From: Candidatus Hydrogenedentes bacterium CG07_land_8_20_14_0_80_42_17
GTDB taxonomy: Bacteria > UBA8481
Direction: 5' to 3'
Assembly (NCBI GenBank): GCA_002780065.1
Contig: PEWQ01000155.1
Location: forward strand, 1 to 5,537
DNA length: 5,537 bases
Of the stretch, positions 2-5,537 are shown piece by piece. The notes below the pieces were generated by a model, which worked only from the letters and a program-made list of their open reading frames with translations, was not told the origin of the DNA and ran no database searches. A program made the position numbers and the translations under genes. The first letter of the stretch is position 1; each line of letters starts with the position of its first letter.

Positions 2-547
2 TCACAGTTTGCTCAGATAATCGATTTGAGCCTTTGCTATTGCATTGCTGGAATTTAATTCGAGAAGTTTTTTAAACTTATCGATCGCTAAAATCTTATT
101 TTCTCTGAATTTTCCCGGATTAGAAATATAAATCATCTTGTTAGCCATAGCGAGATTATAAAGTGCTTTTTCCATATTCTTATCCGTTGCAAGCGCCATT
201 TCAAAAAACTGAACGGCTTTCGTATACATTTTCGACTCATAAGCCTGAACTCCCTGATTGTAGAGTCGAATCGCCTTATTAATCTTTTCGGAAATGATAA
301 AAGATGCGCGACTGATGGCGATATCAGAATAGGCAGGAAATTTTTCAGCGAGAAATTTGTAATGATTTGCGGCTTCCTGCCACCTCTGCTCTTCTTCCAA
401 TTTAAATCCATTCTCAAATTGCATTCCAAATGCTTGAAGCTCTTCCCTCTCTACATCCGAAAGTCTCTGCCACAAAGTATCAACACCTTGAGTTCTAATC
501 TGATCGATCCATAATTTCACACGATCAGAAAGTATAAAATTATTCAC
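2..547 (-). CDS. Soluble TPR-repeat protein, GTG start, end of the visible operon
   Basis: This is a complete 181-residue protein ending in TGA at 4-2. It has no signal peptide, membrane segment or lipobox, so it is probably cytoplasmic. TPR-like helical hairpins can be read at about residues 44-75 (with RWQEAANHYKFLAEKFP), 92-125 (YNQGVQAYESKMYTKAVQFF) and 126-167 (ALYNLAMANK to DKFKKLLELN). TPRs usually act as protein-binding scaffolds, and no catalytic motif is visible. The start is GTG at 547-545, overlapping the end of the upstream gene by 8 bases, which suggests translational coupling. The purine-rich stretch GGAAGAGGAA (570-561) lies 13 nt upstream, rather far for a ribosome binding site. 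The next in-frame Met is residue 42 and would cut into the first TPR, so GTG is preferred. Co-transcription with cpaF suggests a Tad accessory role, but this is inference and the family is not recognised. Confidence 0.85.
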   Translation of the reverse strand: MNNFILSDRVKLWIDQIRTQGVDTLWQRLSDVEREELQAFGMQFENGFKLEEEQRWQEAANHYKFLAEKFPAYSDIAISRASFIISEKINKAIRLYNQGVQAYESKMYTKAVQFFEMALATDKNMEKALYNLAMANKMIYISNPGKFRENKILAIDKFKKLLELNSSNAIAKAQIDYLSKL

Positions 548-923
548 TTTTATTTTTCTGTTCCTCTTCCATACTTTTTTTTACATCGAGCAAACGTTTT
601 CTCGCATCATCGGTTCTATATCCATAATCAAGTTCAATGTAAGGAAACTCGTCTATCAGCCTCTGATACTCTTTGGCGGCATTTTCCCATTCTCCCCTGC
701 TGTAGTACCATTCAGCCAGATTCCACTGCGCCTGCGCCGCGCGGCGAATCATTTCATCCGAGTTATTCTGAGAATTAACCGCCGTTTTATCCTTCACCAG
801 CAAAGATTCGTTGCGCATCCGCTCAAACCAATGTTCACCAGGCGGAGTCAACAAACCATCTGCAATAACAACTACAGCGACTGCAATAAGTCCCAATATG
901 ATAAATTCTTTTCGGAAATTCAT
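540..923 (-). CDS. Small N-terminally membrane-anchored TPR-like protein
   Basis: This is a 127-residue protein from ATG at 923-921 to TAA at 542-540. Residues 1-6 (MNFRKE) are polar and basic, and residues 7-22 (FIILGLIAVAVVVIAD) form one hydrophobic segment. It is therefore probably a bitopic inner-membrane protein with its C-terminus outside the cytoplasm. No cysteine follows the hydrophobic stretch, so it is not a lipoprotein. Residues 61-95 (from RAAQAQWNLAEWYYSRG through EYQRLIDEFPY) form a convincing TPR hairpin, and DDARKRLLDVKKSMEEE may be a capping helix. The tail is charged. It starts 37 nt after cpaF; a weak GAGAG lies about 12 nt upstream of the ATG. It might tether other Tad parts through the TPR, much as the TPR lipoprotein TadD does elsewhere, but homology to TadD is not claimed. 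Coding status is supported by its fit between cpaF and the next gene. Confidence 0.8.
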   Translation of the reverse strand: MNFRKEFIILGLIAVAVVVIADGLLTPPGEHWFERMRNESLLVKDKTAVNSQNNSDEMIRRAAQAQWNLAEWYYSRGEWENAAKEYQRLIDEFPYIELDYGYRTDDARKRLLDVKKSMEEEQKNKSE

Positions 924-2312: not shown

Positions 2313-3572
2313 TTATTGATTCAATGCTTGAAGATTGTTCAATGCAACGGCGTTATTCGGGTCCAATTCCAAAACCCGTTTCCATGCTCTAGCCGCGTCA
2401 GTGACATTGCCCAATCTGTAATTTGCAAATCCCAAGAATAAATGAGTCTCCACATCTCTCGGTTCAAGTTTTACCGCAATCTCATAAGAATTTCTGGCAG
2501 ACAAATAATCGCGATTTAAATATTGAGCCGTCGCTAAATTGTAAACAACTCGAAAATTTTTCGAGTCCATCGCATACGCTCTCTTGTAAAAAATAATAGC
2601 TTCGTCATATTTGCCGAGAGCAACAAGTTCATTACCGAATCTCATGTTTTCTTCCGCGGCTTCAGGTTTTGGAATCGACTCATTGTCAGTTTCTGCAATA
2701 TCAATTTCTGAAACACGATGTGCCGACAAATTTTCTCTTGAGCTGATTTCCAATTGATTTTCAGGTGCGGCATATTCTGGCGCTGGAGGCTTGGGAGCAG
2801 ATTGACGGCGCATCCAAGGTCCTCCCCAATTGTAAACAAGTCCTAGAGAAATCGAAGATTGAGATATCAATTCAGCTTCCAACCTTCCCGAAATCTTTTC
2901 AGTAAATGCGTATTCAGCTCCGGCAATTACTCCGAAATCGTCACGTGATTCAATCGAACCGCTCGCTCCAATTCCTGAAGTCGTTGTGCCGTTGTATTTT
3001 CCTCTCATAGGAGCATAAACCACTCCGGCGTAAGGAATAAGCTTGTCCATATCCATAGCGCCTTTAATTGCAAAGCGAAAATCATCAATGTCAATCTTTC
3101 CCCCGTTTATCGAAGAATAAAAATTCCTGTATTCTGCGGAAAAGCCAACCATAAGATCAGACCAATTTGAACTCGGATTCAAAACGTATTCTCCTCCGAT
3201 GCCCCAAAGAAAACCATACTCTCCTTTCAAACCAAGAATGCCTTGAGAGATTCCCTGAGCCTGAAGTTCGAGGTTCCCGATATTCATGCGGGAAGCGCCA
3301 AGCAAAGCGTAAACTGAAAGACGGTCTGCAAGGCCATAGCAAAGCCTACCGGCGAAATTAGTAGTCGATGCCTTCAGCTTGGAAGGAAAAATTGTCGAAG
3401 AGCCAACGGTTCCGTCAAAATCGATGTAGCGCTCGCCGGTTCCAATCTCTAAATTCAAATTTCTGTCCTGAGCCGAAATCCGTTTTGGCGGGCCCAGAGA
3501 AGCACCAACGTTCGAAGCGATCAAAAGAATAATGACGCATACCGAATAAAAATTTTTCGTTAGAAAATTCAT
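2313..3572 (-). CDS. Outer-membrane beta-barrel protein with C-terminal TPR domain
   Basis: This is a 419-residue secreted protein. Residues 1-24 look like a Sec signal peptide: basic start, hydrophobic core VCVIILLIAS, likely cleavage after NVGA. Residues about 37-250 are alternating, Gly- and aromatic-rich strands typical of a small outer-membrane barrel, such as ADRLSVYALLGAS, GFLWGIGGEYVL and LMVGFSAEYRNFY, closing with ISLGLVYNWG. A Pro/Ala/Glu-rich linker follows (about 251-305). Three TPRs then fill about 307-412, with classic signatures GKYDEAIIFYKRAYAMD, RDYLSARNSYEIAVKLEP and GNVTDAARAWKRVLELDPNN. With a barrel this small, the C-terminus should face the periplasm, placing the TPRs there. 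GAGAGGAGAG at 3586-3577 is a good ribosome binding site for the ATG at 3572. The gene lies 27 nt after the regulator and just before cpaF. By analogy it could supply the periplasmic TPR function of TadD or a pilotin, but that is inference; the family is not recognised. Confidence 0.88.
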   Translation of the reverse strand: MNFLTKNFYSVCVIILLIASNVGASLGPPKRISAQDRNLNLEIGTGERYIDFDGTVGSSTIFPSKLKASTTNFAGRLCYGLADRLSVYALLGASRMNIGNLELQAQGISQGILGLKGEYGFLWGIGGEYVLNPSSNWSDLMVGFSAEYRNFYSSINGGKIDIDDFRFAIKGAMDMDKLIPYAGVVYAPMRGKYNGTTTSGIGASGSIESRDDFGVIAGAEYAFTEKISGRLEAELISQSSISLGLVYNWGGPWMRRQSAPKPPAPEYAAPENQLEISSRENLSAHRVSEIDIAETDNESIPKPEAAEENMRFGNELVALGKYDEAIIFYKRAYAMDSKNFRVVYNLATAQYLNRDYLSARNSYEIAVKLEPRDVETHLFLGFANYRLGNVTDAARAWKRVLELDPNNAVALNNLQALNQ

Positions 3573-3599: not shown

Positions 3600-5276
3600 T
3601 TATTTTCTTCGCGACACAACGTCAACAATTCCTTTGTCTTCTTCATCCTGCATTTCATTCATCCTGAAACAAATCTCGTCAAAGCTTTTCTCTTTCAGAG
3701 CATCCGCATCTGAGTCTTCCAATCTTCCAAGAAGAAATCTCAGCGGCTCATTCTTCTTTGAAAGCGGAAGATGAAGCAAAGTGTCCGAGACCTCCATAAT
3801 AGCATTTTCCGAACCGGCAAGCGGAATAGATCTGAGTTTATGCTCACCAAACCTGCCTATCATAGGGCCAGTGCCGGAATAAGTTCTTAACCCGTCAGTA
3901 CCAATTTCGCATGCAGAAATCAAAAAAGTCTGTTCTTCATTATCAGAACTGGCAATAGGAACTATATCTCGTAGAAAAGAAGAAAGCAGTCGAAAAAAAT
4001 CTATAAGATGCCGGACATGGCCGCGGGAGACAAAATCAGAATAAGATCCGAGTGCAGAATAGAGGTGAGCAGAAGCAAGCGACGATTTTTTATCTTCCGA
4101 AAAAAAGCCTCCAATAAAAAGCAAAGACGACGGATATCTTACTGCTACTTCAATCGGAACATCTATCAATCTAGCAAAAAGAGATATGCTTTTGTTAGCG
4201 TGCCGAATAAAACATTTTCCATCAAAATTACTCGATCTCAATGGTCTCGATAGCATACTTTTAAAAATACATTCTGCATTTTTAGATTTTCCCTGTGAAG
4301 AAAGAAAAATATTTCCCATTGATCTGACAAAAGGAATATATCTTCCAGGCGGTAATTCTAAGGAATTATGTAATTTCATTTCTTCCTTATCTGATTCTTC
4401 CACTTTAGATTTTATCAAAATATCAAAGCCGCTATTCTTTATGAGTTTTTCAATGTAAGGCGTAGCATTGGCGACTTCAACCGCCAATTTCATCTTTCGA
4501 GCCTTTCGTATAAAAGAAAAAATTGCCTGCAATCCAAAAGAATCTGTGAAATCGAAAATAGAAAAATCCAGAACAATTTTTTTTACCCCGTCACATATTT
4601 TTACTTCCGAGAACGGATTTGACCTTGTTCTGTCCAAATGTCCGACAAGGCATATTTTTAATATATCTGCCTCTTCAAATACCGCAACGTGAAATGGAAG
4701 ATGAGTCTGCGATTTTCTGAAGGATTTACTATTGTCCAGAAACCTTATGATCTTCAGACGGTTCACTCCGTCATTTCCAAAACAAAATGTCATGGAATCC
4801 ATGCATCTCGAAATCAAAAAGAGACCCAATCCTCTTTCGCGATAATCGTTGAGGTCTCGCCATTTCAATCTACTCAAGTCCGGACGATTACCGGTGTCTT
4901 CAAATTCAATAACAATTTTCTCTTCTTCAATAGTAATAGAAATCGATATTGTCTGGTCAGGTTCATGGCAATAACTATGTTCTATAATATTCGTGAACGC
5001 CTCGGTTAGTGCAAGCCTAATATCAAAAAGCATAGCGTCATCAATTTTTAGTTCGGGATAATCATTCAGAGAATTAAGCATAAATGCTGTCGCAGATGCT
5101 ATTTCACTCATCTTTGCCTTAAATATTCCATTAGCAGATTTGTGAATACATATTTTGACCGGCAAACCGTCTTTTCTCACAGGTGCCGAATCAATGGAGC
5201 CTTCAATATTTTTACGGAGCCGCGTCATTAATAAAATAATAGATGAATAACAATATTCTTTCAAGTTGGAATGCAT
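3600..5276 (-). CDS. Fused partner-switch regulator: RsbW-like kinase, STAS, degenerate phosphatase-like region
   Basis: This is a 558-residue predicted cytoplasmic protein. Residues about 38-180 form an RsbW/SpoIIAB-type ATPase domain: N box LALTEAFTNIIEHSY with Glu92, Asn96 and His100, then EFEDTGNRPD with Asp127, and RGLGLFLI as the glycine lid. Residues about 192-290 form a STAS domain. FDFTDSFGLQAIF places Asp245-Ser246 where SpoIIAA has Asp57-Ser58, so the phospho-acceptor serine is kept. Residues about 305-558 resemble a SpoIIE/RsbU PP2C domain in outline: LLFIGGFFSEDKKSS for the metal-site loop, TFLISACEIGTDGLRTYSG for the strand leading to the usual AGHPP motif, and EDKGIVDVVSRRK for the usual DDITLVV end. 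The metal-binding aspartates seem lost, so it may be a sensor or scaffold. In known systems the kinase phosphorylates the STAS serine and a phosphatase reverses it. It is the first gene of the block. The start ATG has GAGGG 9 nt upstream; Met17 lacks a site. The third domain is inference from pattern. Confidence 0.87.
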   Translation of the reverse strand: MHSNLKEYCYSSIILLMTRLRKNIEGSIDSAPVRKDGLPVKICIHKSANGIFKAKMSEIASATAFMLNSLNDYPELKIDDAMLFDIRLALTEAFTNIIEHSYCHEPDQTISISITIEEEKIVIEFEDTGNRPDLSRLKWRDLNDYRERGLGLFLISRCMDSMTFCFGNDGVNRLKIIRFLDNSKSFRKSQTHLPFHVAVFEEADILKICLVGHLDRTRSNPFSEVKICDGVKKIVLDFSIFDFTDSFGLQAIFSFIRKARKMKLAVEVANATPYIEKLIKNSGFDILIKSKVEESDKEEMKLHNSLELPPGRYIPFVRSMGNIFLSSQGKSKNAECIFKSMLSRPLRSSNFDGKCFIRHANKSISLFARLIDVPIEVAVRYPSSLLFIGGFFSEDKKSSLASAHLYSALGSYSDFVSRGHVRHLIDFFRLLSSFLRDIVPIASSDNEEQTFLISACEIGTDGLRTYSGTGPMIGRFGEHKLRSIPLAGSENAIMEVSDTLLHLPLSKKNEPLRFLLGRLEDSDADALKEKSFDEICFRMNEMQDEEDKGIVDVVSRRK

Positions 5277-5316: not shown

Positions 5317-5389
5317 GCACGCACGGGTGCGTCCATTGACGCGTAGCATCCATTGACGCGTAGCGTCCATTGACGCGTAGCGTGCGTGC
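5317..5389. repeat. 9-bp inverted repeat bracketing the tandem array
   Basis: GCACGCACG at 5317-5325 and its exact reverse complement CGTGCGTGC at 5381-5389 enclose the three 17-bp units, the right arm sharing one base with the last unit. In RNA the arms could pair and present the repeats in a loop of about 55 nt. In DNA they could mark the ends of a small inserted element. No flanking target-site duplication was recognised. Confidence 0.75.
5331..5381. repeat. Three tandem copies of a 17-bp unit
   Basis: The unit GTCCATTGACGCGTAGC occurs head-to-tail at 5331-5347, 5348-5364 and 5365-5381. Copies one and three are identical, and copy two differs only in its first base (A for G). Each unit contains the palindrome ACGCGT. 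It is much more GC-rich than the surrounding DNA. The near identity points to recent expansion or to selection for exact sites. The array ends 54 bases before the regulator's start codon. It is not a CRISPR array, because there are no spacers. Confidence 0.95.
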
Positions 5390-5467
5390 CTCCAGATATT
5401 GCGCACATGCCTCCATGAAATGCAATGTTCCTTTTCCTAAAGAAGATGTGAAATAATTGAAAAATGA

Positions 5468-5508
5468 AAATTGGAAAAATAAAATTTTCAATTTGCACTT
5501 TCCAATTT
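5468..5508. repeat. A/T-rich 10-bp inverted repeat in low-complexity DNA
   Basis: AAATTGGAAA (5468-5477) is matched exactly by its reverse complement TTTCCAATTT (5499-5508) across a 21-base loop. A second nested pair is TGAAAAT (5465-5471) with ATTTTCA (5484-5490). The whole stretch is made of overlapping AATTTGCA, AATTGG and TTCAATTT words, so part of the symmetry follows from low complexity. It has no T-run characteristic of an intrinsic terminator at its end. Confidence 0.5.
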
Positions 5509-5537
5509 GCAATTTCAAATATAATGGGAGACGCTCT

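Follow-up and report, generated by a model that had tools for sequence, protein, structure and literature searches.

The DNA analyzed here (the window, 5537 bases) is a complete contig from a draft genome of 2.39 Mb that is 87% complete. It contains the gene that an earlier note on this sequence had proposed at 3600-5276. The gene is real: a single open reading frame spans the whole interval, on the minus strand, which that note had left unstated (Table 1). Codon usage indicated in-frame coding for the entire gene, including its C-terminal half. The true start may lie further in, at the ATG at 5228 (M17), because the only orthologue found begins at about residue 38 of the window protein and a promoter-like match occurs at 5264-5236.

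Table 1. Coordinates of the gene, its parts and the genes downstream in the window.
Feature	Position	Strand	Basis or remark
ORF, 558 codons, HATPase - STAS - orphan C-terminal region	3600..5276	-	ORF call and codon usage
RsbW/SpoIIAB-type HATPase domain, residues 50-183	4728..5129	-	PF13581, E 4.9e-19
N box, E92-A-F-T-N96	4989..5003	-	sequence; retained in orthologue
G1 box, D127-T-G129	4890..4898	-	sequence; D-Y-A in orthologue
G2 box, G149-L-G151 in YRERGLGLFLISRCMD (R148-GLGL)	4824..4832	-	sequence
STAS domain, residues 192-292	4401..4703	-	PF01740
Ser246, predicted STAS phospho-acceptor following D245	4539..4541	-	sequence; Asp in orthologue
Orphan C-terminal region, residues 293-558	3603..4400	-	no Pfam, NCBIfam or PDB match
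Outer-membrane beta-barrel and TPR protein (OMP-TPR), 419 aa, 27 nt downstream	2313..3572	-	PF13505 and TPR; orthologue L010 11051-12436
TadA/CpaF-type secretion ATPase, 445 aa	961..2298	-	PF00437, E 1.2e-67; orthologue L010 12496-13830
Small TPR protein, N-terminal hydrophobic stretch	540..923	-	PF13174; orthologue L010 13864-14331
TPR protein, 181 aa	2..547	-	TPR matches; orthologue L010 14333-14893

Four genes on the same strand lie downstream, at spacings of 27 nt, 14 nt and 37 nt and then an overlap. The secretion ATPase was also matched by TIGR03819, below the cut-off of that model. We searched for orthologues of the 558-codon gene in GTDB contigs, viral contigs and 386 sampled genomes. 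The only orthologue among the GTDB contigs belongs to Candidatus Hydrogenedentota isolate J006 (RFFU01000133.1, L010 in Table 1), a member of the same order as the window genome. The viral contigs held none, and the 386 sampled genomes gave nothing beyond HATPase or HATPase-STAS matches.

The genes for OMP-TPR, TadA-type ATPase, TPR and TPR proteins have the same order and strand in the window and in the J006 contig. The orthologue begins with a GTG, which shares bases with the stop codon of a metallo-beta-lactamase-fold gene. After it, on the same strand, come three EutN/CcmL genes and a DAHP synthase gene (assigned by sequence), so that four genes stand between the orthologue and the OMP-TPR gene. 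The three tandem EutN/CcmL genes, which encode bacterial microcompartment vertex proteins, lie at 8942-9860, directly 3' of the orthologue (E 1e-29 to 6e-22); among the ORFs listed for this contig, no gene for a shell hexamer was noticed. The TadA/CpaF-type ATPase gene stands amid TPR genes in both genomes, and no other tad genes were noticed beside it.

Elsewhere in the window genome we found three intact SpoIIE phosphatases. Two of the three adjoin STAS genes that keep the DSSG site, and one of these two is a GAF-SpoIIE-HATPase fusion. Thus, the genome has a classical partner switch in trans. It also encodes three region 3-containing sigma factors, among them one of the FliA/WhiG type by size and sequence, which J006 shares.

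HATPase and STAS Domains

Pfam HATPase_c_2 (PF13581) matched residues 77-164 with 69 bits against a cut-off of 27.4. The RsbW and SpoIIAB models of NCBIfam matched the same domain below their cut-offs, and its best solved relatives are RsbW and SpoIIAB chains in the PDB (RsbW 6m36, E 1.2e-4). The earlier note had read the N box, Asp127 and glycine lid of an RsbW-like kinase, and all three are where it placed them (E92/N96, D127/G129, GLGL). Judged by profile and by its N, G1 and G2 boxes, the domain is of the RsbW/SpoIIAB type. Its identity to the orthologue is 43% (z 46), and the 16-residue stretch at the G2 box, YRERGLGLFLISRCMD, is the same in both proteins except for the first variable positions. 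The G1 glycine is absent from the orthologue.

Pfam STAS (PF01740) matched residues 218-291 (E 2.3e-8; 34.2 bits against a cut-off of 22.6), and the SpoIIAA model of NCBIfam matched the same place below its cut-off. The Asp-Ser site noted earlier is present as D245-S246. Identity to the orthologue is 27% here (z 8.4), and the site reads TDSFG in the window protein versus LDDEA in the orthologue; that is, the acceptor Ser is replaced by Asp and the next Gly is lost. The suggestion of phosphorylation in cis can thus hold at most for the window species. A phospho-switch as a conserved function was rejected, because the one orthologue found, which is syntenic, carries Asp-Asp in place of Asp-Ser.

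After the STAS domain the two proteins could not be aligned (z −0.8), with 266 residues in the window protein and about 225 in the orthologue. Conservation against this single orthologue therefore falls along the chain, from 43% in the HATPase to 27% in the STAS domain and none in the C-terminal region. From this comparison, the HATPase appears to be the most constrained part of the protein.

The domain types, the N, G1 and G2 boxes and the Asp-Ser site are those of RsbW/RsbV and SpoIIAB/SpoIIAA of Bacillus. However, these are separate proteins in Bacillus, and the J006 orthologue has no acceptor Ser. Rv1364c of Mycobacterium tuberculosis has the arrangement PAS-PP2C-RsbW-STAS, in which the kinase and the phosphatase act on the protein's own STAS domain (PMC9138534, PMC7693655). 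Like the window protein, it has an RsbW-type kinase followed by a STAS substrate in one chain, and its kinase phosphorylates its own STAS Ser. Rv1364c differs in having an active PP2C and a PAS sensor ahead of the kinase, whereas the window protein has no PP2C by Pfam or NCBIfam profile, nor any other recognizable phosphatase, and carries an orphan region after the STAS domain.

SypE of Vibrio fischeri has a PP2C phosphatase as well as an RsbW-like kinase in a single chain (PMC3999984, PMC8256260). It resembles the window protein as a multidomain regulator with an RsbW-like kinase domain, and its output is biofilm formation. However, SypE acts on a separate STAS protein, SypA, whereas the window protein has its STAS domain in the chain, and neither a receiver nor a PP2C domain was found in it. 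In SypE the kinase domain comes first, and a receiver domain is present. Two other sampled genomes encode HATPase-STAS fusions in the same order as the window protein. One is L009 of genome G061 (248 aa; Pfam E 1.2e-29 and 7.3e-23) and the other, recognized by sequence, is L070 of genome G180 (283 aa; LDFVDSSGLG). Both differ from the window protein in lacking a C-terminal extension, and both have serine at the STAS site.

A kinase and a STAS domain in one chain are therefore already known, from Rv1364c and from these two fusions. The window protein is a variant of such fused partner-switch regulators, which differs by its domain order, the lack of a recognizable phosphatase and an unplaced tail. 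Of the description of the gene as a whole partner-switch module in one polypeptide, the analysis supports the HATPase and STAS domains in one chain, and neither the complete module nor the pseudo-phosphatase.

The C-Terminal Region

The last 250 residues had been read as a SpoIIE/RsbU phosphatase whose metal-site motifs are replaced. Profile searches for the three domains recovered the HATPase and STAS domains and no PPM. Neither Pfam nor NCBIfam gave a PPM or SpoIIE family match to the window protein at E ≤ 1, and Pfam gave none to the orthologue at E ≤ 10. The motifs GGD, GDVSGKG and DD are indeed absent from residues 293-558, and three other proteins encoded in the genome carry them. The claim that TDG is also replaced depends on the register chosen, because a literal TDG sits at residues 460-462.

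We built our own SpoIIE profiles from 10 and 43 sequences of this and related genomes. An unfiltered hmmsearch gave no match in the C-terminal region. Its hhalign scores against the SpoIIE profile were at or below those of shuffled controls (10.5, with a mean of 14.5 for its own shuffles). In a semi-global test, the 0, 15, 30 or 50 most informative SpoIIE profile columns were masked and 269 unrelated decoys were scored. The decoys that scored at least as high as the window region amounted to 23%, 22%, 25% and 5.6%, respectively, and for the region of the orthologue the share was 26-68%. True SpoIIE domains that were left out of the profile still scored at least 90 with 50 columns masked, against a decoy maximum of 9. 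Thus, a SpoIIE domain that had lost its metal ligands alone would be recognized. If residues 293-558 do derive from SpoIIE, they would have diverged far beyond the loss of these ligands.

More than one SpoIIE register fits by eye. FIGGFF may be set against IGDVSG and PLRFLLGRL against LLLLYTDGL, or the literal TDG may be used. Since several registers are possible, the strand pattern proves little. The AlphaFold model of the full-length protein, computed with two sequences (pLDDT 40), and that of residues 332-558 alone (pLDDT 38) were too poor to use. Fold searches with the latter returned unrelated folds (Z < 6) with no PPM among the matches listed, and the model is too poor for this result to carry weight. 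The low-confidence full-length model places a helix at 420-438 and strands at 450-458, 465-467 and 472-475.

It may be that residues 300-558 form a SpoIIE/RsbU-type PPM fold without metal ligands, a pseudo-phosphatase that would bind a ligand or the STAS domain but hydrolyze nothing. Next to RsbW and STAS domains a PPM is a natural guess, SypE unites an RsbW-like kinase with a PP2C (PMC3999984), and by eye the strands and helices of the low-confidence model can be matched in order to a SpoIIE domain's second half. However, the region scored within the decoys, unlike masked true SpoIIE domains, and its sequence is not common to the syntenic orthologue. We consider this reading unlikely, though it keeps some chance. 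It is unsupported, because none of the sequence tests detects a PPM and the predicted structures have too low a confidence to settle the matter. On sequence grounds we do not class the window protein as a member of the SpoIIE family, and the dead phosphatase remains unproven. The case cautions against inferring pseudo-enzymes from strand patterns alone.

Proposed Role and Rival Readings

We tentatively propose that the protein is a HATPase-centered regulator with a STAS partner in cis and a fast-evolving tail for input or partner binding, which likely controls the adjacent secretion or surface apparatus. This reading is possible but somewhat short of probable. The HATPase would be the ATP-binding domain that holds a client (an anti-sigma target or some other partner), and its client-holding face would be occupied in cis by the STAS domain. 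In the window species the HATPase would phosphorylate Ser246, which would loosen the contact between the two domains and change the partner held. For dephosphorylation the protein would depend on one of the intact SpoIIE phosphatases encoded separately in the genome. In this simplest model the tethered STAS partner would be adjustable through Ser246 in the window species, and it would be fixed in its sister lineage. The C-terminal 266 residues would serve as the lineage-specific region for input or partner binding.

Because the gene heads a co-directional run with OMP-TPR and TadA-type ATPase genes, the likely output would be control of that TadA-driven surface or secretion apparatus. The two domain matches with their boxes and Asp-Ser site, the strong conservation of the HATPase, the gene order kept in both genomes, the three intact SpoIIE proteins, the shared FliA/WhiG-like sigma factor and the HATPase-STAS fusions elsewhere support this proposal. 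Against it count the orthologue, which has neither the acceptor Ser and the Gly next to it nor the G1 Gly, and the four genes ahead of the OMP-TPR gene in J006. The domains, their motifs, the gene order and the falling conservation are observations, whereas the cis contact, the phosphorylation, the phosphatase in trans and the output are inferences.

The steep gradient of conservation and the loss of Ser and Gly from the STAS site of the orthologue could also be explained by decay. The protein would then be the decaying remnant of a fused partner-switch protein that was once larger, in which only the HATPase is still selected, as an ATP-binding interaction module, while the STAS domain and the C-terminus drift. 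However, both C-termini are long and open, that of the window protein is in-frame by codon usage, which neutral decay would not keep, and the window STAS domain retains its site. We regard such decay as unlikely.

In a further and quite improbable reading, the C-terminal region would be a PPM-derived pseudo-phosphatase, too diverged to be recognized from its sequence, and would clamp the STAS domain of its own chain. The protein would then be a self-contained switch free of a phosphatase, with the sister lineage locked by a phospho-mimicking Asp where the acceptor Ser would stand. A complete kinase-substrate-phosphatase protein of the Rv1364c kind, with an active phosphatase domain in a different order, would likewise have its kinase-STAS pair in one chain, but it is very improbable here, as the protein has neither the metal motifs nor a PPM profile match.

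To return to the HATPase-centered regulator, if its cis arrangement works as proposed, it would represent partner switching within a single polypeptide that lacks its own phosphatase and is encoded next to a TadA-type secretion locus, in an uncultured lineage. The change from Ser to Asp between the two relatives would then offer a direct way to ask whether switching depends on phosphorylation at all.

Hairpin Repeats Upstream of the Gene

Upstream of the gene, at 5317-5389, a 17-bp hairpin unit (GCGTC-CATT-GACGC-GTA) forms an array of 3.2 copies. The array lies within an inverted repeat, GCACGCACG...CGTGCGTGC, with CTCCA after it. Across the genome the unit occurs in 24 exact copies, many of them near contig ends (reversed control, 0), and it was found in none of 59 other genomes, including J006. 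The element had no match in Rfam, and its DNA fold gave a z of −3.1.

Nine of these elements were read. They contain 1 to 8 inner units, and their outer arms vary and mostly stay complementary, as in the pairs GCACAGGCG/CGCCTGTGC, GCACGTGCG/CGCACGTGC and that of the window. The element resembles REP-type interspersed elements, and its hairpin array is variable. An A/T-rich repeat (AAATTGCAAATTGGAAAGTGCAAATTGAAAATTTT) occupies 5455-5520 of the window, and on other contigs (L117, L118, L121) it is found next to several hairpin elements.
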